Positions 12,915 through 35,126 of a stretch of DNA of 38,887 nt are shown here, piece by piece. Position 1 is the first letter of the stretch; each line of letters begins with the position of its first letter. The notes below the pieces were generated by a model, which was given only the letters and a program-made list of their open reading frames with translations, was not told where the DNA came from and ran no database searches. Both the position numbers and the translations under genes were made by a program. The DNA is taken from the IMG/VR virus record IMGVR_UViG_3300021401_000022, positions 1 through 38,887 of that record. One strand, given 5' to 3'. This stretch comes from a virus.

Positions 12915-14135
12915 CTAGAACGGCAATTCCTGCATCTCGGCCACGCCGGAATCGTACTCCTGGATCGCCATCGCAATTTTTTCCATATAGTTCTTGTCGG
13001 TCTTGTCCGGGTAGGTGTGGAAGGCTTGCAGGATGCGCAGTCCGCGTTCTATTGCTTCCGGGGGAAGTTGATCGGCGGCTTCCTTTGATTTCACTTTGAA
13101 GATCGCATCCGATGCCACGATTCGCATCTGAATATCTTCCTTGGCTCGTCCGCCGAAATAGAGATCGAGAATCGCTTTAATCTCTGCTGACATGGCCGCT
13201 TTGCGTTCTCGTGCGGCGTAGAATTCGGAGTCTCCGCTGGGAGTGATGAGCGCTGAGGAATTTCCCGGAAGGATTTGCACCCGCGCCATCGTTGCCTGAA
13301 CTTCGTCGAAGTGGGGCTTGATCGAGTTCCACACCTGGCGGAATCCGCCGCGCTCATAGTTCGATTTATCCGACCAGCGCAGCACCCCTCCGTTGAGCAT
13401 CCATGTCCGATCTTTCAGCACGTCCGCCCGATGCACCATGCGGCCCTCGCCCTGGCGCTCCTGGCCTTTCACTGTTTTCGCTTTGCGCTCCAAAGACATT
13501 TCGAGCAATAGGTGTGGCTCGTAGCCGAATGATTCGCCGCCGCCTGCCTTGAATTTCGTTCCCACTTTAACCAGTTTGGTCTTCACGTCGCCATTCGAAA
13601 GGTGCTCTTGCTGTTCTTCGAAGTCGTTGCCCAGCCGACCCAGCGCGAAGCAATTCATGGAGGAATTCAGGAACAACCCGATGTAGGCGTTCCACACTTG
13701 GCGAATCTGGCCCCAGGAGTCGATGGGGATGAAACTCTTGTCGCCACGGAATGTGTCGAGCAGTTCATTCCAAACCAGCGTGAGGGGATCGACGATCCAG
13801 CAACATGCTCCGAGCTTCTCCGCTTCGAAGATTGAATCTCGCATCTGTTTGAAACTGCGGTAGGGCTTCTGAATCAGTTCGATGCCCTCGACATCGAAGA
13901 TGCGCCGTTTGGGAAATTGCCATGCGAGATCGGGATCGACCACGTACACCGGAGCCTTGTTGTAGAACTGCGTTGAGAGCGCGGCGGCGAGAAGCGCGGC
14001 GGTGACCGTTTTGCCGCTACCCTGGCCTCCGTACATGCCGAGCTTGATGGGAACGGGAACTGGAACTGGTGGCTTCAGTGGAATGTGATGGACCTGATTA
14101 GGCAACGTTGGAACGGCTTGCGGCTGAGCGGACAT
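12915..14135 (-). CDS. P-loop ATPase, phage AAA_24/Sak4-like
   Basis: The 406-residue product carries a Walker A GGQGSGKT at 36-43 and a Walker B-like hydrophobic run ending in D116 (CCWIVDP). The fold is RecA/AAA-like, as in the AAA_24 family of phage recombination ATPases related to Sak4, which act with single-strand binding or annealing proteins. A Pro/Val-rich stretch (about 20-29) precedes the P-loop; the C-terminal 200 residues match no family I know. The start at 14135 is fixed by AAAAAGGAG. It is the largest gene of the minus-strand operon. Exact role in recombination or replication is inferred. Confidence 0.72.
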   Translation of the reverse strand: MSAQPQAVPTLPNQVHHIPLKPPVPVPVPIKLGMYGGQGSGKTVTAALLAAALSTQFYNKAPVYVVDPDLAWQFPKRRIFDVEGIELIQKPYRSFKQMRDSIFEAEKLGACCWIVDPLTLVWNELLDTFRGDKSFIPIDSWGQIRQVWNAYIGLFLNSSMNCFALGRLGNDFEEQQEHLSNGDVKTKLVKVGTKFKAGGGESFGYEPHLLLEMSLERKAKTVKGQERQGEGRMVHRADVLKDRTWMLNGGVLRWSDKSNYERGGFRQVWNSIKPHFDEVQATMARVQILPGNSSALITPSGDSEFYAARERKAAMSAEIKAILDLYFGGRAKEDIQMRIVASDAIFKVKSKEAADQLPPEAIERGLRILQAFHTYPDKTDKNYMEKIAMAIQEYDSGVAEMQELPF

Positions 14136-14363
14136 GAGAGTTCTCCTTTTTGAGATCGAGCAATTTGTGGTAGGCGGTGATGGTTTCATCGGCTAACTTG
14201 TAGCGGTCGAGGGCGCATTGCAGCATTTCGCGCGAGGTTTCAAAGTCTTGCGCTTCAAAGACCGAGAGCACGAACTGAATAGCATTGACGCAGTTGAGCG
14301 CCGCCAGTTCGCGCGCGAGTCGTAGAGTCGCTGGAATTCGAGGGCGTCGAGGATTTCAGCCAC
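14098..14363 (-). CDS. Small helical gene with apparent frameshift
   Basis: GTG 14363 begins MAEILDALEFQ, but this frame soon becomes Arg/Ser-rich nonsense. Another frame reads LARELAALNCVNAIQFVLSV and continues as a charged helical protein to the TAA at 14098-14100, overlapping the ATPase start. Joining the two halves needs an indel near 14325-14340. If not an error, a 57-residue version from GTG 14271 remains possible. Confidence 0.4.
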
Positions 14364-14686: not shown

Positions 14687-14715
14687 ATTCTAAAATTCCC
14701 CTTGCAATCCGTCAA
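14687..14715 (-). promoter_or_regulatory. Sigma70-like promoter of the minus operon
   Basis: On the minus strand TTGACG (14710-14715) and TAGAAT (14687-14692) are separated by exactly 17 bases; each differs from consensus by one base. It would start transcription near 14680 toward the genes 14610 to 11875. Confidence 0.75.
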
Positions 14716-17207: not shown

Positions 17208-17792
17208 GTGGAGGCATTATCAAAGCCCGAACTGATCGCGATTTTACAGGCGGCGACGAATCATCGCCTGAGGAACGCGCTGATGATTCTTGTGGCTTAC
17301 TCCCACGGTTACAGAGCCAGCGAAGTGTGCGGAGGCTGGCGCATAAGGATTGTAAACAAGCAGAAACATAGATACTTTCATCCGGGATTGCTGGCCTGCG
17401 ATGTCCGTGATGGCTGCATCACAGTGGCGCGCGCCAAGGGCAGTTTAGTCACAGTGCAACCCTTAGTCGAGGATGAAAATCCGCTCCTAAACGAGCGGAA
17501 ATTGTTGTCTGCTTATGTTGCTTTGCTGCATGGAAAGCAAAGGCTGTTTCCAGTTACGCGGCAACATTTTTGGCGGCTGTTTCAACGATATGCGAAAGCG
17601 GCCGGCATTCCCGAGCGCAAGCGCCATCCTCACATACTGAAACACACGATAGCCATGCAAGTCATTCACAGCGCGGGAATTGAGAATACCCGGCAATACC
17701 TCGGACACAAATCCATGAGCAGCACCGGTGCTTACTTGAAAGTGTCAGATGCGGCGGCAAGTGCCGCAGTTGGAGCTGCGCTGAAGGGTTAG
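17208..17792 (+). CDS. Short tyrosine recombinase (integrase catalytic domain only)
   Basis: The 194-residue product is a tyrosine-recombinase catalytic domain without the usual N-terminal DNA-binding domains. R36 (YRASEV) fits Arg I, K77 the beta-hairpin Lys, H142-x-x-K145 the box II HxxR, H167 (LGHKS) the third box, and Y176 the nucleophile. Arg II is Lys here (codon AAA), which is unusual for this family. Integrases of this type join phage and host DNA. GTG 17208 follows the terminator by 15 bases and has no clear ribosome site. No attachment site could be proven. It marks the phage as temperate. Confidence 0.8.
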   Translation: MEALSKPELIAILQAATNHRLRNALMILVAYSHGYRASEVCGGWRIRIVNKQKHRYFHPGLLACDVRDGCITVARAKGSLVTVQPLVEDENPLLNERKLLSAYVALLHGKQRLFPVTRQHFWRLFQRYAKAAGIPERKRHPHILKHTIAMQVIHSAGIENTRQYLGHKSMSSTGAYLKVSDAAASAAVGAALKG

Positions 17793-22477: not shown

Positions 22478-22579
22478 TTAGCAGGGCTTGCGCTTACCGC
22501 ACCAAACGCAGCGGATTACAAGTTTACCTCGAATTTTTACCATCTCCCATCCGCATACGTGAGCGATTAACTGTTTCAT
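22478..22579 (-). CDS. 33-residue Cys-containing minus-strand gene
   Basis: A short minus-strand frame (MKQLIAHVCGWEMVKIRG, then KLVIRCVWCGKRKPC) with a CxxC and two more Cys. It fills the gap between two plus-strand genes. TAGAAT lies exactly 6 bases before the ATG, as for two other minus genes here, which supports a leaderless transcript. The 5' end abuts the plus-strand start at 22591. Function unknown. Confidence 0.5.
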   Translation of the reverse strand: MKQLIAHVCGWEMVKIRGKLVIRCVWCGKRKPC

Positions 22580-22585
22580 TCAGGA

Positions 22586-22591
22586 ATTCTA
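22586..22591 (-). promoter_or_regulatory. -10-like TAGAAT, leaderless-promoter candidate
   Basis: TAGAAT on the minus strand, 6 bases upstream of the ATG at 22579, so transcription would begin at the start codon. No clear -35. It overlaps the plus-strand start codon at 22591. Confidence 0.45.
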
Positions 22592-23301
22592 TGCCCATCA
22601 CCCTCAACGAGCGCACCCGCATCAACCATGAGCTGAAGAAGCTCGGCTTCGGCGGATTGAACGACGCGAACACGATCCAGCAGATTGCCACGCTCTACCG
22701 CACCCACGACTCCTTTCGTGGCCTGCTGATGTCCACGGCTCCAGATCAGCGCAACATTGCCTATAACGCCCTGCGTCCGCACCTGTGTTTCGTTCCTAAG
22801 CCTCTCGACGTGTACGAGCGCGAAATCCATGAGAAAGCCGAGCGCGAGCAGTGGGATGTAATCCACAAAGACAATCCCCACTGGCCGCAACCCTTCAAAG
22901 TTGGCGAAGTCGAGACCGACGAATACCGCCTCGAAAAAGCCGCACAGGAAGCCATCGAAGCCAAGGAGCACGAGAAGGCGAAGGGCGTAGTTTCGCTGAT
23001 TTGTACGCGCTGCACGGTGGAAGGCCGCTTTCCCGCACAGACGAAAAAGTTGGCGCTGAAGAAAGCGCACGAAGACGGCTGGCGCTGGGCCGAAAAGAAC
23101 GGCGTTCAGAAAACGTATTGCCCCTCGCATGTTCCCGGCAGAGCGACGATGACCCTTGAATGCTCCGGATGCCATTTAACCCAGCGGCATCGCGTCTGGG
23201 ACGAACAGGATGGCTACCGCATGGCAAGGTTGGCGGGCTGGAAAATTAGCGAGGCGGCGAAGTGTCCGATGTGTGTGGCGAAGCTGGTGCTGGTGCAGTG
23301 A
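22591..23301 (+). CDS. Multi-zinc-knuckle phage protein
   Basis: The 236-residue product has an N-terminal helical domain (about 1-125) and a C-terminal Cys-rich half: CTRC, a lone CP near YCPSH, CSGC and a final CPMC, forming probable zinc ribbons separated by basic helices (KKLALKKAHEDGWRWAEK). AGGA precedes the ATG. It is encoded just upstream of the portal. Unknown role; nucleic-acid binding is plausible. Confidence 0.6.
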   Translation: MPITLNERTRINHELKKLGFGGLNDANTIQQIATLYRTHDSFRGLLMSTAPDQRNIAYNALRPHLCFVPKPLDVYEREIHEKAEREQWDVIHKDNPHWPQPFKVGEVETDEYRLEKAAQEAIEAKEHEKAKGVVSLICTRCTVEGRFPAQTKKLALKKAHEDGWRWAEKNGVQKTYCPSHVPGRATMTLECSGCHLTQRHRVWDEQDGYRMARLAGWKISEAAKCPMCVAKLVLVQ

Positions 23302-23431
23302 GATGAACTCTCACTTGCCCGAGAAAGTTGTCGATCTTTCGTTGCAGTTTTTTACTGCTGCTGTAATGGGATGCCTGCTGTAGTAGGTAAATGGCATCGT
23401 TCCATAACTCGTTGTCCTTTTCCCAATTCAT
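23246..23431 (-). CDS. Small helical minus-strand gene overlapping the portal start
   Basis: A 61-residue frame (MNWEKDNELWNDAIYLLQQA, then SHYSSSKKLQRKIDNFLGQV) with good protein texture and TAGAAT exactly 6 bases before the ATG. A -35-like TTGGAG lies 17 bases further upstream. It overlaps the annotated portal start by 41 bases, so the portal may begin later (GTG 23448) or both are used. The last 15 residues, over the upstream gene, look less ordered. Confidence 0.45.
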   Translation of the reverse strand: MNWEKDNELWNDAIYLLQQASHYSSSKKLQRKIDNFLGQVRVHLTAPAPASPHTSDTSPPR

Positions 23432-25691
23432 CCGCAAATTCTACCCCGTGTCCGACCCCACTCCAAAAGAAATTCGCGATGCCTATCAGGATTTCAGGAA
23501 CGCCTGGCAGGACATCCGCAATGAAGCCCAAGAGGACATGCGGGCCATCTCCGTGCAAGGCCCGTGGTCCGACGACGACCGGGACGCGCGCAAAGGCAGC
23601 GGCCGGCCATGCATCCATCTCGATCAGTTGAACCAGTTTCTCGCGCAGGTGAACGGCAATGCGCGGAAATCGAAGCGGGCGATCAAGGCCATTCCGAAGG
23701 GCGATGGCGCGAACGATCAGGACGCCAAGAAACGTTCCGCCGCCATCATGGGAATTGAAGAGCGGTCGCAAGCCCAGCCGATTTACTTGGGAGCATTTCA
23801 ATCGCAGATCGAGCGCAGCTATAGCTTCTCTGTCATCCGCACAGAGTACAAAGACGATTCCAGCTTCGATCAGGAAATCCTGATCAAGCCGATTCTGAAT
23901 CCCGACACCGTGCTGCTTACGCCCTACTATAAGCAGCCGGATGCGTCCGACATCACCGAGGGTTTCATTCTCGACCGCATGATAAAAAAAGCCTTTCGCC
24001 AGAAGTGGCCGAAGGCGAAGGTCACGGATTTTGGCGATGAGGATTTAGATGATTCGACGGTCACCGACTGGATCAAAGACAAGTATGTGCAGTATGCGGA
24101 GTTCTGGAAGGTGCAAAGCCAACTCCGCACGCTCTTATTAATCGAGCGTGGCAACGGCCCGGAAACAGTCTGGGAAGACGAACTCGAAAAGCGGGATGGT
24201 AAGGGCCGCTTCCGCGATCCCCGCAAAGGGCTGCAGGTAAAGCGTGAGCGTGAAGTGGATTTTCCCGAAGTCTTTCAGTACATGACCAACGGCGTCGAAA
24301 TCCTCGACAAAGTTCCGTGGGACGGTTCGCGCATCCCCATCATTTCCTGTTTGGGTCCGGAGCGTTGGACTACGGAAGGGGGAACCGCGAAAAGACAGTT
24401 GCTTTCGATGGTGCGCTTCGCCCGCGATCCGCAGATGTTGCTGGATTACTTCGCATCCGGTGAGTGCGAAGAGGCAGGGATGATCCCCAAGGCTCCGTTT
24501 GTCGGCGCCGTCGGGCAGTTTGAGACCGACAAGGAGACGTGGGATGAGATCACGAAAGTTCCTCACGCTACCGCGCAATACGATCTCATTCTCGACTCCG
24601 GCGGCACTGCGGCTCCGCCTCCCTCGCGTCCCGCATGGGTACCGAACTTTGAAATCTGGGAAGTCGCCAAGGAAGCGGCGATCCGCGCCATTCAAGCGGG
24701 GATGGGAATCGCACCTCTTCCCGATGCCACACAGCGACGAAGTCAAAAATCTGGCGTGGCCCTCGAAAAGATCGATGACATGATCTCGCTCGGAGCTTTT
24801 CCATTCATTGATCGCTTCGAGAACGGATATTTATACAACGCCGGGTGGCAGATCAATGAACTCATCACGCCGATTTTAGATACCCAGCGGGACATGCCAA
24901 TCTCGCAGCCCGACGGCAAGCGCTCCACGATGCAGATAGTCGGAAACACTTCTCATCCCTTGAATGACGATGGCGCGTATGAAGTGCAGGGGCTCGACGA
25001 AGGCCATCTCCACACCGGCAAGGGTGAATTCGATGTAACCATTTCAACCGGCCCCAGCTATCAATCGGAACGCGAAGAGCAAGATGAGTTCGCCGACTCG
25101 CTTACCGAGAATCTGGCGAACCTTCCGCAACCGGGCACGCCCCAGGCAAAGGTTTTCGCGCTTTCCATTCGGATGCGCCCCACTCTCGGTCCAGTGGGCC
25201 AGCAGATCGCCGACGTATTCGATCCCCCGCCCGCCGACAATCTTCCTCCGGAAGCGCAAGCCATCGTGCAAAATCTGCAATCGCAACTACAGCAAGCCCA
25301 GACCGAGAACTCCGCGCTGCACATGGAACGCGCCGGGAAGGTGCTGGAGCAGCAGACCAAGATGCTCATTCAGCAGATGAAGGAAGATGGTGACAACCAG
25401 CGGGCGCAACTGGCGAACGACATCAAAGTGCTGCTCGCGGAAATCGGCGCGAAATCACAGTCGGAACAAGAACGTGCTCAGATGTACTACGAATTCTGGA
25501 AAGAGAACCACTCCGCAGCGCACGAAGTTGGGATGCAGGCGATGGATCATCAGCACGACGCGCAGCAAGCTAATCAGTTGGCGAAGTTGGCGCAGCAGAC
25601 CCAGGCGTCCGATCAGTTGCATCAGCAGACGATGGCGAGTCAGGCGCAGGATGCTGGTACAAGTGGCGGTTCTTCTCCCGCCGCGCCATAA
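23391..25691 (+). CDS. Portal protein, P22 gp1-like
   Basis: The 766-residue product is a portal of the P22 type; P22 gp1 is 725 residues. The diagnostic N-terminal run is RPCIHLDQLNQFLAQVNGNA and the following RKSKRAIKAIP, then ERSQAQPIYLGAFQ. A Gln-rich coiled coil at about 620-765 would form the barrel that reaches into the capsid. Twelve subunits build the DNA channel and the connector for gp4-like proteins. The ATG at 23391 has only a weak AGGTAA ahead; GTG 23448 is an alternative. Confidence 0.88.
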   Translation: MASFHNSLSFSQFIRKFYPVSDPTPKEIRDAYQDFRNAWQDIRNEAQEDMRAISVQGPWSDDDRDARKGSGRPCIHLDQLNQFLAQVNGNARKSKRAIKAIPKGDGANDQDAKKRSAAIMGIEERSQAQPIYLGAFQSQIERSYSFSVIRTEYKDDSSFDQEILIKPILNPDTVLLTPYYKQPDASDITEGFILDRMIKKAFRQKWPKAKVTDFGDEDLDDSTVTDWIKDKYVQYAEFWKVQSQLRTLLLIERGNGPETVWEDELEKRDGKGRFRDPRKGLQVKREREVDFPEVFQYMTNGVEILDKVPWDGSRIPIISCLGPERWTTEGGTAKRQLLSMVRFARDPQMLLDYFASGECEEAGMIPKAPFVGAVGQFETDKETWDEITKVPHATAQYDLILDSGGTAAPPPSRPAWVPNFEIWEVAKEAAIRAIQAGMGIAPLPDATQRRSQKSGVALEKIDDMISLGAFPFIDRFENGYLYNAGWQINELITPILDTQRDMPISQPDGKRSTMQIVGNTSHPLNDDGAYEVQGLDEGHLHTGKGEFDVTISTGPSYQSEREEQDEFADSLTENLANLPQPGTPQAKVFALSIRMRPTLGPVGQQIADVFDPPPADNLPPEAQAIVQNLQSQLQQAQTENSALHMERAGKVLEQQTKMLIQQMKEDGDNQRAQLANDIKVLLAEIGAKSQSEQERAQMYYEFWKENHSAAHEVGMQAMDHQHDAQQANQLAKLAQQTQASDQLHQQTMASQAQDAGTSGGSSPAAP
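23438..23466 (-). promoter_or_regulatory. Leaderless promoter candidate, TTGGAG-N17-TAGAAT
   Basis: Minus strand: TTGGAG (23461-23466), 17 bases, TAGAAT (23438-23443), 6 bases, ATG (23431). The -10 is one base from consensus. It lies inside the portal coding region if the portal starts at 23391. Confidence 0.5.
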
Positions 25692-25830
25692 GAACAATCG
25701 AGCCCGGAACTAATTCGTAATCCGTGAGGCAGTTTTTACAGCGAGCATACCAACGATCTTGATTTTGAATCAGTACGAACAGTGATTGTCGGCAGTCTGT
25801 GCAGTACTGAGTATGTCCTGAAATTTCCAT
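25570..25830 (-). CDS. Zinc-ribbon minus-strand gene
   Basis: An 86-residue product whose first 60 residues look real: CTDC at about 10-13 and CKNC at about 31-34 form a zinc ribbon, followed by LTDYELVPG. The last third overlaps the end of the portal gene and is Pro/Ser-rich. TAAAAT lies exactly 6 bases before the ATG. The 260 bases upstream (25831-26091) hold only ambiguous short minus-strand frames that I do not call. Confidence 0.5.
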   Translation of the reverse strand: MEISGHTQYCTDCRQSLFVLIQNQDRWYARCKNCLTDYELVPGSIVLMARREKNRHLYQHPAPDSPSSADATDRTPGSAAPTSPTD

Positions 25831-25836
25831 TACCCG

Positions 25837-25842
25837 ATTTTA
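25837..25842 (-). promoter_or_regulatory. -10-like TAAAAT, leaderless-promoter candidate
   Basis: TAAAAT on the minus strand, 6 bases before ATG 25830, one base from consensus. No clear -35. Confidence 0.4.
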
Positions 25843-26091
25843 GCTCCACTCCCGCGCCGCCGGTCTCCGCGTCACATCCGGCATAAATTCCAGCGAAAAC
25901 AAGGCCGTTCCGAATATGAGGCTTACTTGGTGGACCGTCGCGTCGATTCTCAGGTTTCACGGCACAAAGCCGAATAGACCGCGGCTACGCAGTTCCCCGA
26001 CCCAATCTCATATCAGCATTCTCGCTGGCATTTCAAGTTTAGCTTCTTCGCGTCTGCTGCGTTAAGCGGAAATTTCCAGCAAAGGCAACCC

Positions 26092-27246
26092 ATGAAAACC
26101 GTCAGTGAAGAATCCGCCCCGGCAGCGGAATTGATTGATACCCCGCATTCAATGGACGAAGCGATGGAAACCGGCTTCCTTCCGGATGACGAACACTATC
26201 GCCTCACCGGAGAATTCAAGAAAGAGAAAGATCCCACGGAGGCGGACACCGAGACCGCCGGCAAAAAAGATCAGTCAGGGAAAACGGACGCCTCGGCAGC
26301 GTCTACGGAAGCCGATACCGCCGCGGCCTCGGCAGCCGCACAACAGCAGAGTACCGAAGAGAAGAGAACAACCGGGAAGACCGCAGCCGCCAGCGAAAGC
26401 CGCTGGGCCAAACTCAGCCGGGAAAACCGCGAACTCAAAGACAAGCTCGCTCAGAAGGAAGCCGCTCGGACTCAAGAAACTTCGCAAGCAACCCAGCGTG
26501 AAACTCAGCAGACCTCGCAATCTGCGACCGAAGCCAAGGCCGCGCCCAAACCCAAGATCGACGACGTTGACGCCGCCGGCAAGCCGAAATACAAAAGCTA
26601 TGCCGAATACGAAGACGCCAAAGATCAGTGGTTGCGGCAGGATACCCTCCGCGAGTTCAACGAGAGCCAGTCGAAGACCCAGCAGCTTACCCAGCAGCAA
26701 CAGGCGGAACGCGAAATCGGCCAGACCCTCAATAAAAAGTTTGAGCCGCTTCGCGCTAAGTACGCGGACTTCGACAAAGTTGCGCTGAATGACATCGATC
26801 CGGCTACCGGAAAACCAAAATATCCCGACAGTCCGGTCCTGTTCATTCCCGCCAAATCGGTGACCGACGATTTTATCGTGCGATCTCCGCACGGCGGCGA
26901 GGTGCTCTACTACCTCGGCCAGCATCCGGAAATTACGCAAGGGTTCTACGGTCGCACACAGGCCGGAGTGCCCATCAATCTCATTCATCCGCTTGATCAA
27001 ACCCGCAAGCTGTTGGAGATCGAGGCGCAATTCTCCGGTACGGCCGCCAGCGACAAACCCGGCGATGACAAATCTTCCTCTTCCTCTGCAAAACCCGTAA
27101 CTCAGGCTTCTCGCCCGCCCCACCAGGTATCCGGAACAGGAACCGTGGCCAAGGACGCGGTGGAGCAAGCCGTAGAAGACGGCGATACCGAGACCTACAT
27201 GCGCGCGCAAAACGCCAAGGAACTCGCACGCCTCAAGAAAAAATAA
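26092..27246 (+). CDS. Scaffolding protein, P22 gp8-like
   Basis: The 384-residue product lies directly before the coat gene, the scaffold position. It is highly charged, Ala/Glu/Lys/Gln-rich, with a disordered N-terminal half, a coiled coil (about 105-150), an ordered middle (FEPLRAKYADFDKVALNDID and EVLYYLGQHPEITQGFYG), and a basic C-terminal helix (NAKELARLKKK), the place where P22 scaffold binds coat. It would guide procapsid assembly and leave before or during packaging. Confidence 0.82.
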   Translation: MKTVSEESAPAAELIDTPHSMDEAMETGFLPDDEHYRLTGEFKKEKDPTEADTETAGKKDQSGKTDASAASTEADTAAASAAAQQQSTEEKRTTGKTAAASESRWAKLSRENRELKDKLAQKEAARTQETSQATQRETQQTSQSATEAKAAPKPKIDDVDAAGKPKYKSYAEYEDAKDQWLRQDTLREFNESQSKTQQLTQQQQAEREIGQTLNKKFEPLRAKYADFDKVALNDIDPATGKPKYPDSPVLFIPAKSVTDDFIVRSPHGGEVLYYLGQHPEITQGFYGRTQAGVPINLIHPLDQTRKLLEIEAQFSGTAASDKPGDDKSSSSSAKPVTQASRPPHQVSGTGTVAKDAVEQAVEDGDTETYMRAQNAKELARLKKK

Positions 27247-27255
27247 GAGGAAACC

Positions 27256-28518
27256 GTGGCCAACTTATTTCTAAACACCTCATGGATTTCCATGGAGGTG
27301 TTGCGCAATCTCAAGAACGCTTTGAAGATTGCCGAATACTTCAATCACGACTGGGAAAAAGACTATGAGAAGGCGTGGGCCGTCGGCACCACGATTCAGG
27401 TTAAGTTCCCGCAACAGTTCACCATCCGGAACGGTCTCGGATACAACCCGCAAGGCATCAACCGCATTTCGACCACGATTTCACTGGACGAGCCCTTCGG
27501 CATCGACTTCCAGTGGGATGACTACGAAGCTGCGGTCAAAGCCGAGCGGTCGGAGGAAGAAATCCGCGAGCAGTACCTGGCCCCGGCCGGCGTGCAGCTT
27601 GCGAACGAATGGGATTCCCGTGCGGCCCTGTTTGCCAAGAACAACTGCTCGCAGATTGTGGGCACGCTCGGACAGGATCCCACTTCCATCGTGTTTCTCG
27701 ATCTGGCCCGTGGCCGCTTACTGCAAAAGGCCGGATCTTATCTCTCGAAGAAACGCGCTGCCCTGATTAGCTCTTCGATGCAGACCAACTCCATCAATAC
27801 CCCGGTGACGTCGTTGTTCCAACCGACCGATGCGATCACCGAAGCTTTCAAGGAAGGTTCGATGGGGAAGCTGAAGACCTTCGACGTCTTCGAAGAGCAG
27901 AACCTGTACTCCCACACCGCCGGAACCTGGCAATCCACCGTCACCGTGACCGGCAGCGGCCAGAGCGGCACGTCTCTAATCATTACCGGCACTGCGGGCG
28001 ATACCATCAAGCAGGGTGACAAGTTCGCGATCGCGAACGTGAACTTTGTCAATCCGCGCTCCCGGCGTCCCCCCGGCCCTTTGACTCCGCAGACGTTCAC
28101 CGCGACGCAGGATTTCACCCTGACCGGCGGAGCCGATACCATCACCATGCTGCCTGCGATTTATGGGCCGAACCCGAACGATCCCAGCGGCAACTCGCAA
28201 TATCAGAACGTCGATAACCTGCCGGTGAATGGCGCGGCTCTGACGCTCTGGCCTGGCACCTCGAATCCGAACGGCGCAACCGGTACGGTGGGTCTGGCGC
28301 TGACTCCAATGGCCTTCGCCATCGTGGGCATGCGCTTCTATCTGCCGAAGGCGGTGGAAGCCCGTTCGCAGGCCGAAGACAAGGCCACTGGAATTCCGGT
28401 GCGCTTCGTAAAAGCCTGGGACGCCTACCACTCATTGCAGATCAACCGCTTCGATACCGTGGGCGGATTCGGCAATCTCTACCAAGATAATGCGTGCGTG
28501 GGGCTACTCGGAGCCTAG
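27256..28518 (+). CDS. Major capsid (coat) protein, P22 gp5-like
   Basis: The 420-residue product matches P22 coat in length (430) and in key places: MANLFLNTSWISMEVLRNLK, the WDDYEAAVKAERS region, LANEWDSRAALF, and a C-terminal RFDTVGGFGNLYQDNACVGL. A Gly/Thr-rich insertion at about 230-320 corresponds to the telokin-like/I-domain area. GTG 27256 has AGAGGA upstream. It forms the icosahedral shell on scaffold. Confidence 0.9.
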   Translation: MANLFLNTSWISMEVLRNLKNALKIAEYFNHDWEKDYEKAWAVGTTIQVKFPQQFTIRNGLGYNPQGINRISTTISLDEPFGIDFQWDDYEAAVKAERSEEEIREQYLAPAGVQLANEWDSRAALFAKNNCSQIVGTLGQDPTSIVFLDLARGRLLQKAGSYLSKKRAALISSSMQTNSINTPVTSLFQPTDAITEAFKEGSMGKLKTFDVFEEQNLYSHTAGTWQSTVTVTGSGQSGTSLIITGTAGDTIKQGDKFAIANVNFVNPRSRRPPGPLTPQTFTATQDFTLTGGADTITMLPAIYGPNPNDPSGNSQYQNVDNLPVNGAALTLWPGTSNPNGATGTVGLALTPMAFAIVGMRFYLPKAVEARSQAEDKATGIPVRFVKAWDAYHSLQINRFDTVGGFGNLYQDNACVGLLGA

Positions 28519-28586
28519 ACAGGAGATTCCCGCTAGCAATATTTTGAGCAAAATTTTGCCCAGATTTTGACCGGGAAACGAAAACC

Positions 28587-29549
28587 ATGACAAAACTCAA
28601 AAACTTTTCTGTTCTCGTTGGTTTGCTCCTGGCGGCAGCACTGTCCCACGCGCAAACCTGCACCGTAGTTGGCACCGCCTGCCAGATCGCCAACACCACG
28701 CTCTCGGCGGCGGTGACCAATACCAGCTCGCAGACCAACATCTTTCGTCTCGCTTCGACCACGGGCATTGTTGCTGGTTCGACCATGCTCTTTATCGAAG
28801 GCGAAATGGATTCGGTGAACGCCGTTACTTCGACCACGGTGACGGTGACTAGAGGCGTACCCGCATCTCGGGTTGCTGCGCATCCCTCGGGCGCAGTGGT
28901 CTGGTACGGTCCTCCGAGCTATTTCCAGTTCAATGTTCCAGTGGGCTATCCCGCCGGGGCTTGCACGCGAAGTGCGGCTCTGGTGGTGCCTTATATCGAT
29001 GTGGGGAATAACGTCTATTCCGACTGCATCGGTGGAGTGTGGGTGCGCGGCATTTCCGGACAAAGCGTAACGGATGTGCTGGCTCCTGATTCGGGCGGCA
29101 CCGCTTACACCTCGCTGAACACCAACGGCACGGCGACGGTGGCGGGAACGCTGAATTGCACCGAGTTGCACGTAGTCTCGAACAAACTGGCAACTGGTTT
29201 AGCCATCATGTTCGGCACTACGGCGGGCGGCAGCGATAAGCACTTAGTTGCCTTGCTCGATTCGTCCGGCAACGTGGTGGCGACCTCCGCTCTGGCGGGG
29301 GCAACCAACTCGACCGCATCCACCTACGTGAGGTTCGCTTTCACTTCACAGTATCTAGTGGTGGGGCCGGGGCAGTATTTTGCCTGCACGCAATCGAATG
29401 GAACCTCGGACACGATCCGGATGCTGGTCACAGGAACACAAGACACCTACCTGACCACCAGCAAAACCGGGACGTTCGGCACCATTCCGACCATCACGGT
29501 TCCGACCACGTTTACCAGCGCGGTCGGGCCATATGCCTATTTGTACTGA
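28587..29549 (+). CDS. Secreted beta-rich protein directly after the coat gene
   Basis: The 320-residue product begins with a clear Sec signal peptide (basic MTKLK, core FSVLVGLLLAAALSHA, cleavage about residue 22) and then a mature part full of Thr, Ser, Gly and Val with beta-strand texture; six or more Cys could form disulfides after export. Its position suggests a decoration or head fibre, but those normally lack signal peptides. It may be a true exported protein, or a virion protein with a signal-like N-terminus. ATG 28587 is clear; the ribosome site (CGGGAAACG) is moderate. Confidence 0.65.
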   Translation: MTKLKNFSVLVGLLLAAALSHAQTCTVVGTACQIANTTLSAAVTNTSSQTNIFRLASTTGIVAGSTMLFIEGEMDSVNAVTSTTVTVTRGVPASRVAAHPSGAVVWYGPPSYFQFNVPVGYPAGACTRSAALVVPYIDVGNNVYSDCIGGVWVRGISGQSVTDVLAPDSGGTAYTSLNTNGTATVAGTLNCTELHVVSNKLATGLAIMFGTTAGGSDKHLVALLDSSGNVVATSALAGATNSTASTYVRFAFTSQYLVVGPGQYFACTQSNGTSDTIRMLVTGTQDTYLTTSKTGTFGTIPTITVPTTFTSAVGPYAYLY

Positions 29550-29570
29550 AGTTGTTCGATAATTAAAGTG

Positions 29571-29639
29571 AGGGCAGGTGCGGCGTTTTATAAACGGCCT
29601 CGCACCGTCGGCGACAGAGCGGCCTGCCCTTAATTTTTT
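29571..29639 (+). terminator. Branched hairpin with U-tract (terminator or structured RNA)
   Basis: AGGGCAGG (29571-29578) pairs with CCTGCCCT (29623-29630), followed by TTAATTTTTT. Inside are two smaller hairpins: one built on GTTT/AAAC with TGCG/CGCA outside, and one on CCG/CGG (about 29605-29622). The whole could fold as a three-way junction and ends like a Rho-independent terminator after the secreted protein gene. Confidence 0.6.
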
Positions 29640-29641
29640 CA

Positions 29642-30145
29642 ATGCCGCTGAACGAATCGACCTCCAAGCCGCGCCGCGAACGCTGGCCCCTCGAATTCGA
29701 TCTGACCGGCGTCCCCCGCGACAACGCAACCCGCAAAAATCTCTTAGAACAGAAACGCAATAACGAGGAAACCATGTCACCAGCAGCCCAGAGCGTCCGC
29801 ACCATCACCGAGAACCACTTCACAGTGGATCAGCCATCGACCGATGTGTTCATCACCGACATCAACAATCCGCCGCGGAAAAACTACAACCCGCACGACG
29901 CCAAGAATCAGTACCCGAAGATGCTCTATCACCACAAGACGGGAAGAGTGCTTCAGGTGCAAAACGAGAAAGAAGAGAAAGCCTCGCTCAAGCGGGGATT
30001 TGAGTTTAAGCCCTCGCCCGACTTCGATTACTCGAAAGTGAGCCGTGCCGGAATCGCCGCGAAAGCTTCAAACGAGCCGAAGCGCGAAGAGGAAATGTCG
30101 GCGGAAGAGCTGGCGGCGCTAGACGAGCAGGATCAGGCGGGTTAG
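29642..30145 (+). CDS. Hypothetical virion-region protein
   Basis: A 167-residue product. ATG 29642 lacks a ribosome site and follows the terminator at once; in-frame ATG 29774 has GAGGAAA upstream and gives 123 residues. The region between looks coding (RRERWPLEFDLTG). The rest is charged (Lys, Glu, Asn). Its TAG overlaps the stop of the convergent gene (TTAG at 30142-30145). Between coat and gp4-like genes; role unknown. Confidence 0.55.
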   Translation: MPLNESTSKPRRERWPLEFDLTGVPRDNATRKNLLEQKRNNEETMSPAAQSVRTITENHFTVDQPSTDVFITDINNPPRKNYNPHDAKNQYPKMLYHHKTGRVLQVQNEKEEKASLKRGFEFKPSPDFDYSKVSRAGIAAKASNEPKREEEMSAEELAALDEQDQAG

Positions 30146-30390
30146 GTTTTCGCGATAGGTCCAAGCTTCCGTAGCATTAACTCGCTAGGTGTTCGCGGAG
30201 TGCGGTATTGTTCGAAATATTTGTTGATCATGCGCTGTTGTCCTTCGTGGTAAGCCTTCGCCACAGCTTGATCGCGCAATCGTTCTTTCGATGCGGGTGT
30301 CCAACTGAAAAAGTAAACATCGAAGCTCCAGCATGAACTCGTGCGCGGCTTCGGCCAACCCGGAACAACGTCTCGCGCTTTCACTTTCAC
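30142..30390 (-). CDS. Small minus-strand gene between late genes
   Basis: An 82-residue frame from GTG 30390: a hydrophobic/aromatic segment (TSSCWSFDVYFFSW) then a basic helix (KERLRDQAVAKAYHEGQQRM). TAGAAT is exactly 6 bases before the GTG. Its start is 16 bases from the plus gene at 30407, and its stop overlaps the plus gene before it. Function unknown. Confidence 0.5.
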   Translation of the reverse strand: MKVKARDVVPGWPKPRTSSCWSFDVYFFSWTPASKERLRDQAVAKAYHEGQQRMINKYFEQYRTPRTPSELMLRKLGPIAKT

Positions 30391-30396
30391 GCTGAA

Positions 30397-30402
30397 ATTC
30401 TA
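30397..30402 (-). promoter_or_regulatory. -10-like TAGAAT, leaderless-promoter candidate
   Basis: TAGAAT on the minus strand, 6 bases before GTG 30390. It lies just before the plus-strand ATG 30407. Confidence 0.45.
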
Positions 30403-30406
30403 ACCC

Positions 30407-31237
30407 ATGTCCATCTCTCCGCCAGTCACGCCCCCGGCTCCGCTGTCCTATCGGGTCTTTGATATCGTGAACGATGCTCTGATTGAAACCGGTGCGCTTT
30501 CTCCGGGGGAAGAACCCGGAGGAGATGAGGCGCAATGGGTCTTCCGCAAAGTGAACAACCGGGTCGATACCTGGCAGGCGCGGCAATTCTATGTGTTCGG
30601 TTATGCCTTCAACATCTACAACCTCACCCCGATGCCGAATCCCATCACCATTGGACCGAGTGGCGTTGCGATTTTCTCGACCAACGGCCAGCCGCGTCCG
30701 GTGCGCATCGAATCGGCTGCGCTGCTTCTGCAAAACACAACCGATCCCGGATTGGTGGATGTGAATATTAACATTCGCGACCGCCAGTGGTGGGCCGCAC
30801 AACAGGTCAAACAGATTGAGACCAACGTCCCGACCGATCTCTATTACAACCCGAACACGCCGGATGGAGAGTTGAACTTCTGGCCGGTGTGCGATGTCTA
30901 TCGGCAACTGAGACTCGAAATCTGGCAAACGGTCTCGCAGTTTCGCACGATTCAAGACCCGATTGGTGGGCCGGATGGGCCGGGGACGCTTCCACAAGGC
31001 TATCGTAATGCGCTGATGCTGACGGTGGCAGAGGATTCCTGCCCCGGATTGATGCGGGAAGTATCGCCGACGCTGAGAGAAAAAGCTCTGGAGGCGCGGG
31101 CGGCAGTGTTCGGAAACAACACGAAGTCACCACGAATCGCCACGCAAGATTTAGGGATGCCACAAGCCAAGCCCAGCGGACAGCGGCAGGATTTCAACTG
31201 GGCGTATGGGAACTATCCGGGGGGAAGGCCGCAGTAG
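30407..31237 (+). CDS. Head-completion adaptor, P22 gp4-like
   Basis: The 276-residue product lies after coat and before the gp10-like gene, as gp4 does in P22. The N-terminal YRVFDIVNDALIETGAL, the acidic DEAQWVFRKVNNRVDTWQAR, and the later Asn/Pro-rich beta part (LTPMPNPITIGPSG) fit the fold of adaptor proteins that bind the portal and close the head. It is longer than P22 gp4 (about 166) by a C-terminal extension. P22 gp4 also has muramidase activity; I see no evidence for it here. Confidence 0.75.
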   Translation: MSISPPVTPPAPLSYRVFDIVNDALIETGALSPGEEPGGDEAQWVFRKVNNRVDTWQARQFYVFGYAFNIYNLTPMPNPITIGPSGVAIFSTNGQPRPVRIESAALLLQNTTDPGLVDVNINIRDRQWWAAQQVKQIETNVPTDLYYNPNTPDGELNFWPVCDVYRQLRLEIWQTVSQFRTIQDPIGGPDGPGTLPQGYRNALMLTVAEDSCPGLMREVSPTLREKALEARAAVFGNNTKSPRIATQDLGMPQAKPSGQRQDFNWAYGNYPGGRPQ

Positions 31238-31535
31238 GAGACCACGGCTTGATGTAGCTATCTACGATCTGAAATGAACCGAGTTCGGGGCGACTCACTT
31301 CATAGAGATGGTCGCTGATTTTCCTGGAAACGATCCAACGCTCAGGCATGGAGTTCCGCACCTTTCGCCAAACCTCATTCACGGTTATGGAATCACCAAC
31401 TCCAATGTCTACACCAAAGTGTGAGATAACGATCTCTTTCGGGAAGCTCCACACTCTTCCGAGCGGGATAGCCTGTTCGAGCGCGATCCCAACGACACCG
31501 GCGGAGAACAGCGATAAGAAGTTGCGGCGGTTCAT
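31194..31535 (-). CDS. Minus-strand protein with Tat-like signal peptide
   Basis: A 113-residue product. ATG 31535 gives MNRRNFLSLFSAGVVGIALE: a twin-arginine RRxFLS motif then a hydrophobic core, a classic Tat leader that would send a folded protein across the inner membrane. The mature part is beta-rich with Trp residues (ERWIVSRKISDHLYEVSRPE). It fills a gap between two virion genes; the 3' end overlaps the gp4-like gene. TAGAAT lies about 130 bases upstream (31666-31671). It is like a lysogenic-conversion gene, role unknown. Confidence 0.6.
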   Translation of the reverse strand: MNRRNFLSLFSAGVVGIALEQAIPLGRVWSFPKEIVISHFGVDIGVGDSITVNEVWRKVRNSMPERWIVSRKISDHLYEVSRPELGSFQIVDSYIKPWSPTAAFPPDSSHTPS

Positions 31536-31665
31536 AAAAGATTTGACGGGGCTGACGGCTGCTCGCCGCCTCACGTTCAGTGCTTCTGCATTTGCGACTC
31601 TGAGCAGTCTGGGACTCGCGCCCCTTTGCAGTCGGTGACCAAACGCTACTACCCCAAATGAGGCA

Positions 31666-31671
31666 ATTCTA
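31666..31671 (-). promoter_or_regulatory. -10-like TAGAAT upstream of the Tat-protein gene
   Basis: TAGAAT on the minus strand in the 3' part of the gap before the gp10-like gene. Six bases after it is ATT, not a standard start; the nearest gene start is 31535, leaving a leader of about 125 bases. Confidence 0.35.
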
Positions 31672-31675
31672 AACC

Positions 31676-33415
31676 ATGCCCGGCAACTGGGGCTTCTGCG
31701 GTCCCACCTACGTTTCGCAGTCTCCGAACGTGGACGACGAGGACGCCATGAACTGCTACTGCGAGCAGTCGGAATCCTCTGGGGCGAAGACGCCGATTGC
31801 CTTGCTGCACACGCCGGGGCGGATCATCTGGGCTTCATTGCCGGGAGAGGGTTCGGTTCCGTTTCTCTACAACATCAACGGGCGCTTGTTCGCGGCGGCT
31901 TCGCATCTCTATGAACTGAACGCTTCAGGCGAAACGATCCAGGATTATGGCTCCATCGGCGGCGCGCCGCTCACTCCGCCGATCATCATCGCCAACCAAT
32001 ACCAGCTTGCGATTCTGAACAATGGCAATCTCTATGTCTTCACCTTTCTGGGAGCGATCACAGCGGCGAGCATTCACTCGGGAGCAGCAGGGATGGGCTA
32101 CGCACCCGGCGACACCGGCACAATTGACGGTACGGGATCCACCTATCAGGTTTTGACCGTGGGCGGCAGCGGAGCGGTCGCAACCTTTCGTTTCACGCCG
32201 GGGCAGGGGAATAGCGTTCAATCGGATGTCGCGACGTCTGTCCTCACCGGTTCGGGTGATGGTACGTTCGCGGTGGACATCACGGGAGTCGCGAACAACA
32301 ATCTTTACACAGTGGTCTCCTCGCAGTTCAACGGTCCGATCGCGCAAATTGGCTTCGTCGATGGCTTCGCGATCGCGACCCTGCAAAACTCGCACACTTT
32401 CCAGCAATCGAACCTCGAAGATTTCACGGTGTGGAACGGCCTGAACATCGCGACGATTTCGCTCTTCCCCGACAACATCGTGAGCATGTCCTGCTATGCC
32501 CGGACGATTAAATTTTCTTCCAACAAGAAAACCGTCTGGTACTACAATGCGGGCGCGGGCTTTCCCGTTTTTATTCCCATCGGGCCAAGCGCGATTTACG
32601 AAACCGGATCGTGCGCAACCTTCGCCGACATCGACACCGGGAATAACAGCGCCTTTTGGTTATCCCAAGATGAGCGCGGCTCACTCATGGCGATGCTGCA
32701 CACGGCGGGCTCTGGCTGGACGCCGCAAAGAGTTTCCACGCACGCGGTCGAACTGGCTTGGCAGACCTATGCGAAAACCTCGGACGCGGTGACGTGGAGC
32801 TATCAGGAGTATGGGCACACGTTTATTGTGGTAGATTTCCCCAGCGCATTTCCGGGCATTGGCACGAGCTGGTGTTATGACCTCACCACTGGTTTGTGGC
32901 ACAAACGGGGCTTCTGGAGCGCGGCCAACGGAAAGTATTTGATGGACCGGGCGATTTGCCACGTCCTAGCCTTCGGAATTCACTTAGTCGGAGATTGGGC
33001 CTCCGGCAACATCTATCAGCTATCGAGCCAGTTCTGCACCGACTTCGGAAATGCCATTCGAGGCTATCGCAGAAGTCCGACTCTCTCGATCGACAACAAG
33101 TGGATTTACTTTCCGCAAATCGAGTTCGATGTGGAAGCTGGGTTAGGGGTGTCGGCGGTGGATGCGGCTCTGTGGGAAGAAGTGCAGAGTATTCCTGTTC
33201 CCGAGGCGGCGCTCTTACTGAAATGGTCGAACGACGCTGGGAAAACTTGGTCGAACGAGTATTCACTCCCAGTGCCGCAAGGGAAATACAACAAGCGCGT
33301 GATGAAGCGTCAGTTGGGCCGCGCCAGAAAAAGATTGTGGGAAGTCAGCTGGACCGCTCCGATTCCGTGGAGGTTTGCAGATGCTTATGTGGAGGCGGTG
33401 CCGCAGGATCGGTGA
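31676..33415 (+). CDS. Packaged-DNA stabilisation protein, P22 gp10-like
   Basis: The 579-residue product fits P22 gp10 (472) in place and texture: an N-terminal MPGNWGFCGPTYVSQSPNVD with the NCYCEQSES segment, a beta-propeller-like body, and a C-terminal FDVEAGLGV / LKWSNDAGKTWSNEYSLPVP region with a last RRLWEVSWTAPIPWRFADAY part. It closes the tail channel after packaging, together with a needle. Two Gly/Thr-rich inserts explain the greater length. No ribosome site is obvious; the motif ATTCTAAACC precedes the ATG. Confidence 0.82.
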   Translation: MPGNWGFCGPTYVSQSPNVDDEDAMNCYCEQSESSGAKTPIALLHTPGRIIWASLPGEGSVPFLYNINGRLFAAASHLYELNASGETIQDYGSIGGAPLTPPIIIANQYQLAILNNGNLYVFTFLGAITAASIHSGAAGMGYAPGDTGTIDGTGSTYQVLTVGGSGAVATFRFTPGQGNSVQSDVATSVLTGSGDGTFAVDITGVANNNLYTVVSSQFNGPIAQIGFVDGFAIATLQNSHTFQQSNLEDFTVWNGLNIATISLFPDNIVSMSCYARTIKFSSNKKTVWYYNAGAGFPVFIPIGPSAIYETGSCATFADIDTGNNSAFWLSQDERGSLMAMLHTAGSGWTPQRVSTHAVELAWQTYAKTSDAVTWSYQEYGHTFIVVDFPSAFPGIGTSWCYDLTTGLWHKRGFWSAANGKYLMDRAICHVLAFGIHLVGDWASGNIYQLSSQFCTDFGNAIRGYRRSPTLSIDNKWIYFPQIEFDVEAGLGVSAVDAALWEEVQSIPVPEAALLLKWSNDAGKTWSNEYSLPVPQGKYNKRVMKRQLGRARKRLWEVSWTAPIPWRFADAYVEAVPQDR

Positions 33416-33560
33416 CCGTATAGCGTTGAGGGACTCGTACAGGATTTGCCGTTCCATCCACATCCCAAGTTTCACATCGAAAACACTCGCGCACCCTTAT
33501 TCCATTAATCCAGACCCAATCCGACCAGCGATGTCCGAATAGCCAGCAGATGATTTTCAT
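33345..33560 (-). CDS. Small Cys protein, minus strand, CxFGHxW type
   Basis: A 71-residue product. The first 35 residues (MKIICWLFGHRWSDW, then RVRECFRCETWDVDG) resemble the short CLFGHKW...CxRC proteins encoded by many prophages (DUF1660-like), with Cys and His set for metal binding. The last half overlaps the end of the gp10-like gene. GAAAAT lies 6 bases before the ATG, the weakest of the -10-like set. Start is 14 bases from the plus gene at 33575. Confidence 0.55.
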   Translation of the reverse strand: MKIICWLFGHRWSDWVWINGIRVRECFRCETWDVDGTANPVRVPQRYTVTDPAAPPPHKHLQTSTESERSS

Positions 33561-33574
33561 GCGCTGATTTTCTC

Positions 33575-34474
33575 ATGCCCACCACTCCCTACCTTCCGCA
33601 GCCCCCGACCCAGATGGGCTCGAACCTGTCGCCGACGGATTACAACTGGCAACTGATTGTGCAGGGGCTTGCACCACTCTTCGAAGTCGATACCTCGAAG
33701 GGGAGTTATTCGGAATCGGTTCCGGCGGCCGGGGTGAATCCGGCGAACCCGGCAACCGGGCAATCGGCGCAAGGGAAAAGGATCACCTACGTCAAAACCA
33801 GCAAAGATGCGAATTCATACACACTTACGGGCGTGCTGGGCGGCAATCTCACGCTTACTAGCTATTTACAGGCATTCACGATTCAGTCCGATGGCACGAA
33901 CTGGTATCCAGTCGGATCAAGCGGCGGAGGAAGTAGTTCGATTTCGGAAGCGAATCTCGCGCCAGCTTTGCCGATTGCCGGCTTGACCTACGGCGGGAGC
34001 AGCGGCCTTGCCGGATTCACCGTGATCCTGCGGCTGCCCGCGCCCTTTGTGCTGGCGGCAACCACGGGCGGCGTGAAGGTTGGCATTGTTACCACTCCGG
34101 GTAGCACGGCTTTGGTGGTGAATTCCGCCTCGATTGGCGCAACCCTTCCAGGTGCAACCGCATGGACGACCTTGCCGGTTTCTTTCACTTGGCCGGCGGG
34201 TTCCTTCGTGAACCCGGAGACGATTTATTTGAGCAACTCCTGCGCGATCGACATCGACGAAGAGCATGATTACTACATCACGGTCTATTTCGATCCGACC
34301 TCCAGCGCGAACGGCTACAACTATGCGCCGACGACTACGGGAAGCCCCTTCGCTTTCTGGCAGGGGTTGAGCGGATATTTGAGCGGGAACCATGCCAATG
34401 ATGCGGACGTTTTGGCATTGCAATCTCCGAGCGGCAATGGGTTATTTTGCATTGGACAGGTGGTCGCGGCCTGA
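33575..34474 (+). CDS. Beta-rich virion protein, tail needle or fibre candidate
   Basis: The 299-residue product stands where P22 keeps its tail needle (gp26), but it is beta-rich, not a coiled coil. The first 120 residues have mixed texture, then a Ser/Gly-rich linker (SSGGGSSS, about 114-121), then a C-terminal beta domain with an acidic IDIDEEHDYYITVYFD strand. It is probably a small tail or fibre protein. Not recognised beyond this. Confidence 0.5.
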   Translation: MPTTPYLPQPPTQMGSNLSPTDYNWQLIVQGLAPLFEVDTSKGSYSESVPAAGVNPANPATGQSAQGKRITYVKTSKDANSYTLTGVLGGNLTLTSYLQAFTIQSDGTNWYPVGSSGGGSSSISEANLAPALPIAGLTYGGSSGLAGFTVILRLPAPFVLAATTGGVKVGIVTTPGSTALVVNSASIGATLPGATAWTTLPVSFTWPAGSFVNPETIYLSNSCAIDIDEEHDYYITVYFDPTSSANGYNYAPTTTGSPFAFWQGLSGYLSGNHANDADVLALQSPSGNGLFCIGQVVAA

Positions 34475-34923
34475 TCGAACGAAGTAAAGACGCATGGGCG
34501 ATCAAAAAGCTGGCGACCGATCCGGCGATTTTCCCGCACATCTGTGACGATTTCTCGTCCAACCCGGAAGACTGGCAACCGCCGTTAGAAGAACACGTGA
34601 TCACGCTTCTGGCGAAAGATGAGCAGGGCTATTTCGGCTTTGGAATTTTCCTTCCCTTTACTTGGGTCTGCTATCAGGCGCACATCGGCTTCCTGCCCCG
34701 TAGTTATGGCGGAAAAGCATTGCAGAGTTTCAAGGAAATGCTCGATTGGATGTGGGCTTACACGCAGGCGCGAAGGATCGTGGGCGAAGTCTGCGTGGAG
34801 AACCGGAAGGCGATTCGTTTCGCGGAGAGAGCCGGATTCAGCTTCTACGGCGTAAACAAAAAGAGCCGGCTGCGGGGCGGGGTATTGCGGGATCAAGTGT
34901 GTCTAGGAATCTCGCGTCCATGA
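34447..34923 (+). CDS. GNAT acetyltransferase-like protein, in gp14 position
   Basis: The 158-residue product has a GNAT core: RSYGGKA (about 85-91, the acetyl-CoA pyrophosphate loop pattern R-x-x-G-x-A), then ENRKAIRFAERAGFSFYG (the last GNAT helix and strand). In P22 a head protein, gp14, sits at this place in the same order. Such virion-associated GNATs may assemble with ejection proteins. TTG 34447 overlaps the gene before by 28 bases. Active catalysis is not proven. Confidence 0.68.
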   Translation: MHWTGGRGLIERSKDAWAIKKLATDPAIFPHICDDFSSNPEDWQPPLEEHVITLLAKDEQGYFGFGIFLPFTWVCYQAHIGFLPRSYGGKALQSFKEMLDWMWAYTQARRIVGEVCVENRKAIRFAERAGFSFYGVNKKSRLRGGVLRDQVCLGISRP

Positions 34924-35091
34924 TTCGGGCACTTTCATCTGACTCAAACTCAAGTGCTCCTCAACTTTTTTCTCGCACTCATCGCAAATAAATTCTGACT
35001 GATTGTCGCACTCATAAATCCAGCCGAGATGCTTGCCGCACTCGTCGCATTTCAATTCAGCCGGATGGTAGAAGTGATTCGAAATTGCCAC
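34903..35091 (-). CDS. Zinc-binding minus-strand gene
   Basis: A 62-residue product: CDEC (about 15-18) and CDEC again (about 36-39), a symmetric zinc site, with His-rich MAISNHFYHPAEL at the start and a charged C-terminal helix. Between the GNAT and gp7-like genes, 17 bases from the start of the latter. TAGACT lies 7 bases before the GTG. Function unknown. Confidence 0.6.
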   Translation of the reverse strand: MAISNHFYHPAELKCDECGKHLGWIYECDNQSEFICDECEKKVEEHLSLSQMKVPESWTRDS

Positions 35092-35098
35092 ACCTAAA

Positions 35099-35126
35099 AG
35101 TCTAACTTATGGGAGCCATCGGACAA
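35099..35126 (-). promoter_or_regulatory. Leaderless promoter candidate, TTGTCC-N16-TAGACT
   Basis: Minus strand: TTGTCC (35121-35126), 16 bases, TAGACT (35099-35104), 7 bases, GTG 35091. Confidence 0.4.

Follow-up and report, generated by a model that had tools for sequence, protein, structure and literature searches.

The subject of this work is a viral record of 38,887 nucleotides and of soil origin (IMG/VR IMGVR_UViG_3300021401_000022, called the window below), and in particular the small minus-strand genes that lie within its late operon. We consider it probable that the late operon of an integrase-carrying podovirus clade is interrupted by exchangeable, opposite-strand moron cassettes with predicted leaderless promoters. 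Each cassette would pair a small gene with a sigma-70-type -10 box of its own (TAnAnT), which stands 6 or, in fewer cases, 7 nucleotides ahead of the start codon. Transcription would then start at or beside the start codon, resulting in translation without a leader, and each cassette would form an independent transcription unit facing the late operon, with a promoter that we infer to be active. Polymerases transcribing the late genes on the plus strand would travel head-on into the cassettes, so that expression in the absence of late transcription, for instance in a lysogen, is the natural reading. Some of the cargo may favour the resident phage by disturbing the assembly or the sensing of capsids. 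The cassettes are antisense in position only, being coding genes that lie in gaps and overlap the neighbouring late genes mainly at 3' ends.

Position of the hexamer and exchange of the cassettes

A first-pass annotation, made from the letters of the window, had pointed to six minus-strand starts preceded by similar hexamers, and all of its coordinates were verified. TAGAAT stands six nucleotides (N6) before the ATG at 22579 (box at 22586..22591), the ATG at 23431 (box at 23438..23443, with TTGGAG 17 nucleotides upstream) and the GTG at 30390 (box at 30397..30402). The three others read TAAAAT-N6-ATG at 25830 (box at 25837..25842), GAAAAT-N6-ATG at 33560 (33567..33572) and TAGACT-N7-GTG at 35091 (box at 35099..35104). 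The promoter at 14687-14715 also reads as described there, TTGACG-N17-TAGAAT on the minus strand. With 11 copies of TAGAAT for 8.7 expected, the window shows no enrichment of the hexamer itself, which occurs three times at N6 and once at each of three other spacings; the signal is therefore unusual by the fixed position of the hexamer and not by its abundance.

Spacings were counted for open reading frames (ORFs) of at least 30 residues with ATG or GTG starts in the window and 45 related loci (L002-L046), of which 44 are viral contigs found via their major capsid protein (MCP) and one is a contig of a bacterial metagenome-assembled genome (MAG). The contigs are metagenomic and partly redundant, and the counts were deduplicated by protein start. 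On the minus strand TAGAAT was found 15 times at N6 versus 0.59 per other spacing (Poisson P about 1e-16), TAnAAT 24 times versus 1.3 and TAnAnT 50 times versus 6.2. The plus strand has no such peak, with no TAGAAT and a single TAnAAT at N6. These counts rule out chance as the origin of the signature, as the annotation had suspected, and the search of relatives for TAnAAT at a fixed distance, which it had proposed as a check, thus yielded the N6 peak on the minus strand. Among 55 listed cassette promoters, selected within N5-7, 46 have N6 and 9 have N7. The cassette genes carry the TAnnnT box about 12 nucleotides before the start that characterizes TA-led genes, and this placement agrees with the leaderless layout originally put forward. 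Conservation was found in part: hexamer and spacing are kept in the close relatives that keep the genes (L002, L003, L016, L021), and they are missing from L152 and L175, two more distant homologues of the 30390 gene. GAAAAT at 33560 is weak taken alone; the homologue at L021:6581 has TAAAAT-N6.

The late genes, lettered A to P, are syntenic across the relatives and include, in the window, P22-like portal, scaffold and coat proteins as well as a head-closure and a DNA-ejection protein. The junctions D/E, E/F, I/J, J/L, L/M and M/N vary in length: some relatives have them closed or overlapping, others extended to hundreds of bases. F/G and N/O are closed in nearly all of the relatives. Filled junctions are occupied by minus-strand genes, and which gene a given junction holds differs from phage to phage. 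Such presence or absence at an otherwise intact junction is typical of morons, as is a promoter of their own, which is read here from sequence.

In the window, the cassette gene at 22478..22579 (33 residues, two CxxC-like cysteines) occupies the gap before the late gene at 22591, and a search for its homologues found none. The 61-residue gene at 23246..23431 lies in slot D/E before the portal gene, the 86-residue gene at 25570..25830, with a zinc-ribbon-like CxxC...CxxC pattern, in the portal-scaffold slot E/F, and the 82-residue gene at 30142..30390 in slot I/J, its TAGAAT-N6 being kept in the homologues L002:5152 and L016:14771. Slot L/M contains a DUF1660-like gene of 71 residues (33345..33560; PF07874, E 2.1e-5), and slot M/N a four-cysteine, zinc-ribbon-like gene of 62 residues (34903..35091) whose TAGACT-N7 is kept in the homologue L003:17554. 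All of these genes are on the minus strand. A seventh minus-strand TAGAAT (31666..31671), absent from the first-pass annotation, has ATT, not a usual start codon, at N6. It lies in slot J/L, 131 nucleotides upstream of the ATG at 31535 of a gene with a twin-arginine translocation (Tat)-like leader. In L003, L009 and L044 the Tat-leader gene comes second in this slot, behind another gene whose start looks leaderless; in the window the start codon of that first gene may thus be lost, or a rare start may be used.

Cargo moves between slots. The DUF1660-like gene is found in L/M in the window and in D/E in L021, a CCPxCK gene in D/E in L003 and in I/J in L009 and L020, and the Tat-leader gene in D/E, I/J and J/L. 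Where two genes stand in tandem in a slot, the start of the second often coincides with, or falls within, the stop codon of the first (L003, L009, L016, L041), which suggests coupled translation. Most of the cargo has no family in Pfam, PHROGs or NCBIfam, and an Rfam search gave no matches.

The signature disappears with the genes: TAnAnT-N6/7-start was found in 45 of 76 filled slots and in none of 68 closed slots (Fisher P 4e-17), a comparison favoured by the smaller room that closed slots leave for an ORF of 25 residues. For this reason the hexamer was also counted alone near the opposing late-gene start, and the weaker but still clear result was 30 of 53 filled slots, 5 of 56 closed slots and 10 of 122 other, non-slot junctions.

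Besides the limited room in closed slots, several observations weigh against the proposed cassettes. The strict signature is missing from 31 of the 76 filled slots, a number in which tandem second genes, other inserts and misjudged boundaries are not separated. Terminator-like sites, expected if morons bring their own terminator, show no excess, and the codon-usage scores of the window cargo are weak and uninformative. More distant relatives, with MCPs of 41-58% identity, show no aggregate N6 peak; the leaderless cassettes are therefore a feature of the clade, and the cases outside it are isolated ones (L103, L119) and Tat-leader genes. The leaderless peak is likewise absent from 150 kb of Granulicella plasmid, 50 kb of Acidisarcina plasmid and 143 kb of the MAG labelled Betaproteobacteria that holds one relative.

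Capsid-derived modules in the Tat-leader proteins

An alignment scan found the Tat-leader family in 51 loci, corresponding to 50 distinct proteins, the first 37 residues of which are conserved (MxRRxFL...AIPxxRVWSFPxxI) and the remainder variable. The RRxFL motif and hydrophobic stretch of a Tat signal are present, R3, R4 and F6 being invariant; TIGR01409 matches 16 of 28 members at E<=0.1 (best 1.5e-4), and PF10518 stayed below its cut-off on these proteins. Among 49 of the genes TAnnnT lies at N6 in 22 and at N7 in 7, and at any other spacing in at most 2. Wherever late genes are recognisable, in 44 loci, the Tat-leader genes are antisense to them. The member in the window, the 'RVWSFP' family gene at 31194..31535 (minus strand, 113 residues, slot J/L), has the plus ORF 31348-31638 as its antisense frame.

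Profiles of 15 late-gene families were compared with 718 minus-strand gap ORFs and 7180 shuffles. The profile of the MCP, which in the window is encoded at 27256..28518 on the plus strand and belongs to the P22 coat family (PF11651, E 3.3e-20), matched 14 gap ORFs (E 1e-8 to 0.03) and no shuffle. Beyond the MCP two matches were obtained, a borderline one for the portal (E 0.04) and a strong one for family M, in L020. The latter (L020:5233-5385, minus strand, E 2e-16) lies at a contig end and may be an inversion, an assembly error or a captured module; it was set aside unexplained. With five MCP-segment profiles 21 of the 50 Tat-leader proteins were matched at E<=0.01, compared with none of 1000 shuffles and 5 of 696 other gap ORFs. 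The matches are short, roughly 10-55 residues, and do not extend to a full-length coat domain; what the matching cargo carries are thus MCP-derived modules, and the proteins are not coat proteins. The order of the modules is broken in places, segment 3 preceding segment 2 in L162 and segment 4 a weak segment 2 in L174. Payload identity to MCPs is mostly 35-70%, and often higher to the MCP of another phage than to that of the same phage.

The MCP profiles detect no modules in the Tat gene of the window, whose payload resembles the MCP by eye only. Structure predictions were too poor for use, with a predicted local distance difference test (pLDDT) score of 35 for the MCP and of 62 for the Tat protein, of which only an N-terminal helix was obtained. 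Literature searches found no morons made of MCP fragments, which is not proof of absence. Payload modules without relation to the MCP recur as well (FDFSxNxxxAFxxLNRxxDxW and WYRDxxGRIWxWPE, in L134/L010, L146, L154 and L136), and their source was not found. On the sense strand, a gene of about 170 residues upstream of the D gene (L030:4517-5029, L034:4357-4875, L012:4232-4744) resembles, at its C-terminal end, the corresponding region of the MCP (E 5e-5 to 2e-3), a second use of an MCP module, here on the plus strand.

A capsid-directed function of these modules is possible, and we give similar weight to payloads that are merely tolerated. If such a function exists, it would most likely consist in blocking the capsid assembly of incoming relatives or in providing decoys for capsid-sensing immunity. 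Tat-like leaders joined to MCP modules and expressed leaderless from a prophage might thus counter competing phages or capsid-sensing defences, serving as dominant-negative fragments or as capsid decoys, a proposal that we regard as somewhat doubtful. One difficulty lies in the Tat-like leader: export through it, if it takes place, would separate the capsid fragment from capsids under assembly. The competing reading, that the cassettes are real leaderless morons in which the leader alone is selected and the MCP-like modules drift as neutral scrap, appears to us just as possible. The leader is indeed far better conserved than the payload, the order of the payload is variable, and what forms the C-terminal tails is the neighbouring late gene read in antisense. 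Against neutral scrap, the source is nearly always the MCP among the 15 late families tested, and the same modules recur with changes mostly at third codon positions (6/2/16 and 7/2/13 at positions 1/2/3). Moreover, phages with a very different MCP, about 25% identical to that of the window, carry fragments like that MCP type, their own in L171 and L174 and that of L142 in L179.

Promoter anatomy and other readings of the minus-strand starts

The annotation had also interpreted the six minus-strand genes of the window as a co-regulated lysogeny regulon, a reading we consider improbable. A shared -10 box and spacing would fit it, as would the presence of a tyrosine integrase (17208..17792, plus strand; PF00589, E 1.8e-16). 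What the genes have in common is, however, a generic sigma-70-type -10; the -35 region differs by slot, and slots fill and empty independently of one another. In 17 of 19 E/F promoters the -10 is TAAACT or TAAAGT, and a TTGACA-like -35 with at least 4 of 6 matches is present in 47%, versus 8% of shuffles, this enrichment being restricted to the portal-scaffold slot. In the 36 promoters of other slots TAGAAT dominates, a -35 is undetectable and a G is common two bases before the -10. No conserved element upstream of the -10 is common to the slots, and no shared operator beyond the -10 was found. Nor is there anything beyond the identical hexamer to link the cassettes with the promoter at 14687-14715. 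Downstream of this promoter, at 12915-14189 on the minus strand, lies a gene for a 424-residue protein that matches phrog_1366 and is weakly CbiA/ParA-like (E 0.003). Expression of the individual cassettes in lysogeny is plausible from their moron-like layout and the integrase.

Even less probable is that the minus-strand transcripts serve as antisense RNAs against the late mRNAs, like STnc6030 of prophage BTP1, with incidental reading frames. Their position opposite late genes and the overlap of cargo 3' ends with the upstream late gene are compatible with it, and a prophage antisense RNA can exclude superinfection (PMC7067206). Selection on protein is nevertheless indicated by homologous cargo in different slots and by differences of 250/171/367 at codon positions 1/2/3 over 686 codons (12 homologous pairs, which are non-independent). 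In addition, the -10 keeps a fixed spacing to the start codon and the bulk of each gene lies within the gap. Several cargo genes have C-terminal tails that face the 3' end of the upstream late gene on the other strand; within these tails most changes fall at the second position of the minus codon (2/13/2, for example), as expected under constraint from the late gene.

Least probable, and rejected on the comparison of filled and closed slots given above, is that the hexamer is a plus-strand by-product, namely ATTCTA within the ribosome-binding region of the next late gene, with a coincidental minus-strand start: the signals do overlap, the minus-strand -10 before late-gene starts sitting between a Shine-Dalgarno (SD)-like sequence and the start codon (for example GGAGACATTCTAGCAATG and AGGAATTCTATG), but in slot E/F the hexamer stands before different cargo although about 60 nucleotides separate it from the scaffold start, and several filled slots have the hexamer without an evident SD. 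In some slots the 6-nucleotide spacer contains, on the opposite strand, the SD-like sequence of the late gene (GGAGAC, GAGGAC, AGGA); in others an SD is not evident. The portal gene (23448..25691, plus strand; phrog_156) was placed by homology at GTG 23448, where relatives align from residue 20; the ORF listed from ATG 23391 is probably too long.

Host and comparison with known systems

Outside the late region of the phages there is a mild N6 excess (12 versus about 6) and one recurrent leaderless-looking gene. This family (M[CD]YDQEKTQ... and relatives; L072:909, L078:13844, L084:4801, L085:1187) has TAnAnT-N6/7 before its start, so that starts of leaderless appearance also exist outside the late operon. 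A scan of genome contigs for a prophage host gave a single contig, L046 (JAHFRL010000053.1), in the MAG labelled Betaproteobacteria, a relative of the window phage with a similar GC (guanine plus cytosine) content (0.62 versus 0.63) and possibly misbinned. A Betaproteobacteria host was rejected, since the contig may be misbinned and the MAG lacks the leaderless peak. A host among the Acidobacteriota, suggested by the soil origin and by published work on leaderless genes (PMC3160421), was likewise not retained, the Granulicella and Acidisarcina plasmids giving no support.

If the cassettes function as proposed, accessory genes could be loaded into a structural operon without disturbing it. The device would be a 12-nucleotide promoter-to-start module on the other strand, overlapping the translation signals of the next late gene, and it would provide a sequence rule for small morons overlooked by gene callers.

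Salmonella prophages are known to carry morons that run antisense to lytic genes, each expressed from its own promoter (PMC7067206). Like these accessory loci, the cassettes are small variable genes in lytic regions, often antisense and with a promoter of their own; they appear to differ in the repeated use of at least six junctions within one operon, in the movement of cargo from one junction to another and in their leaderless-looking starts. TA-led leaderless genes, with TAnnnT about 12 nucleotides upstream of the start, are established in several phyla and make up 9.7-19.4% of the genes in three Acidobacteria (PMC3160421). The placement of TAnnnT is the same in the phages, where it is concentrated in cassettes on one strand.

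The prophage protein Tab blocks virion assembly by targeting the tail tape measure protein (PMC10884400), and the likeness to the capsid-module cargo lies in the proposed role only, namely stopping the assembly of other phages from a prophage. The MCP is a known trigger of capsid-sensing immunity, as in CapRel (PMC9712102) and a TIR system (PMC11312562), against which an MCP-like decoy is conceivable. In the Ty1 element, p22/p18, a piece of the element's own capsid protein, inhibits assembly (PMC4599808, PMC8458377). The phage cargo differs from it in consisting of short diverged modules that follow an unrelated leader on the opposite strand; if functional, these modules would be a viral counterpart of restriction factors that derive from capsid proteins, such as Ty1 p22.
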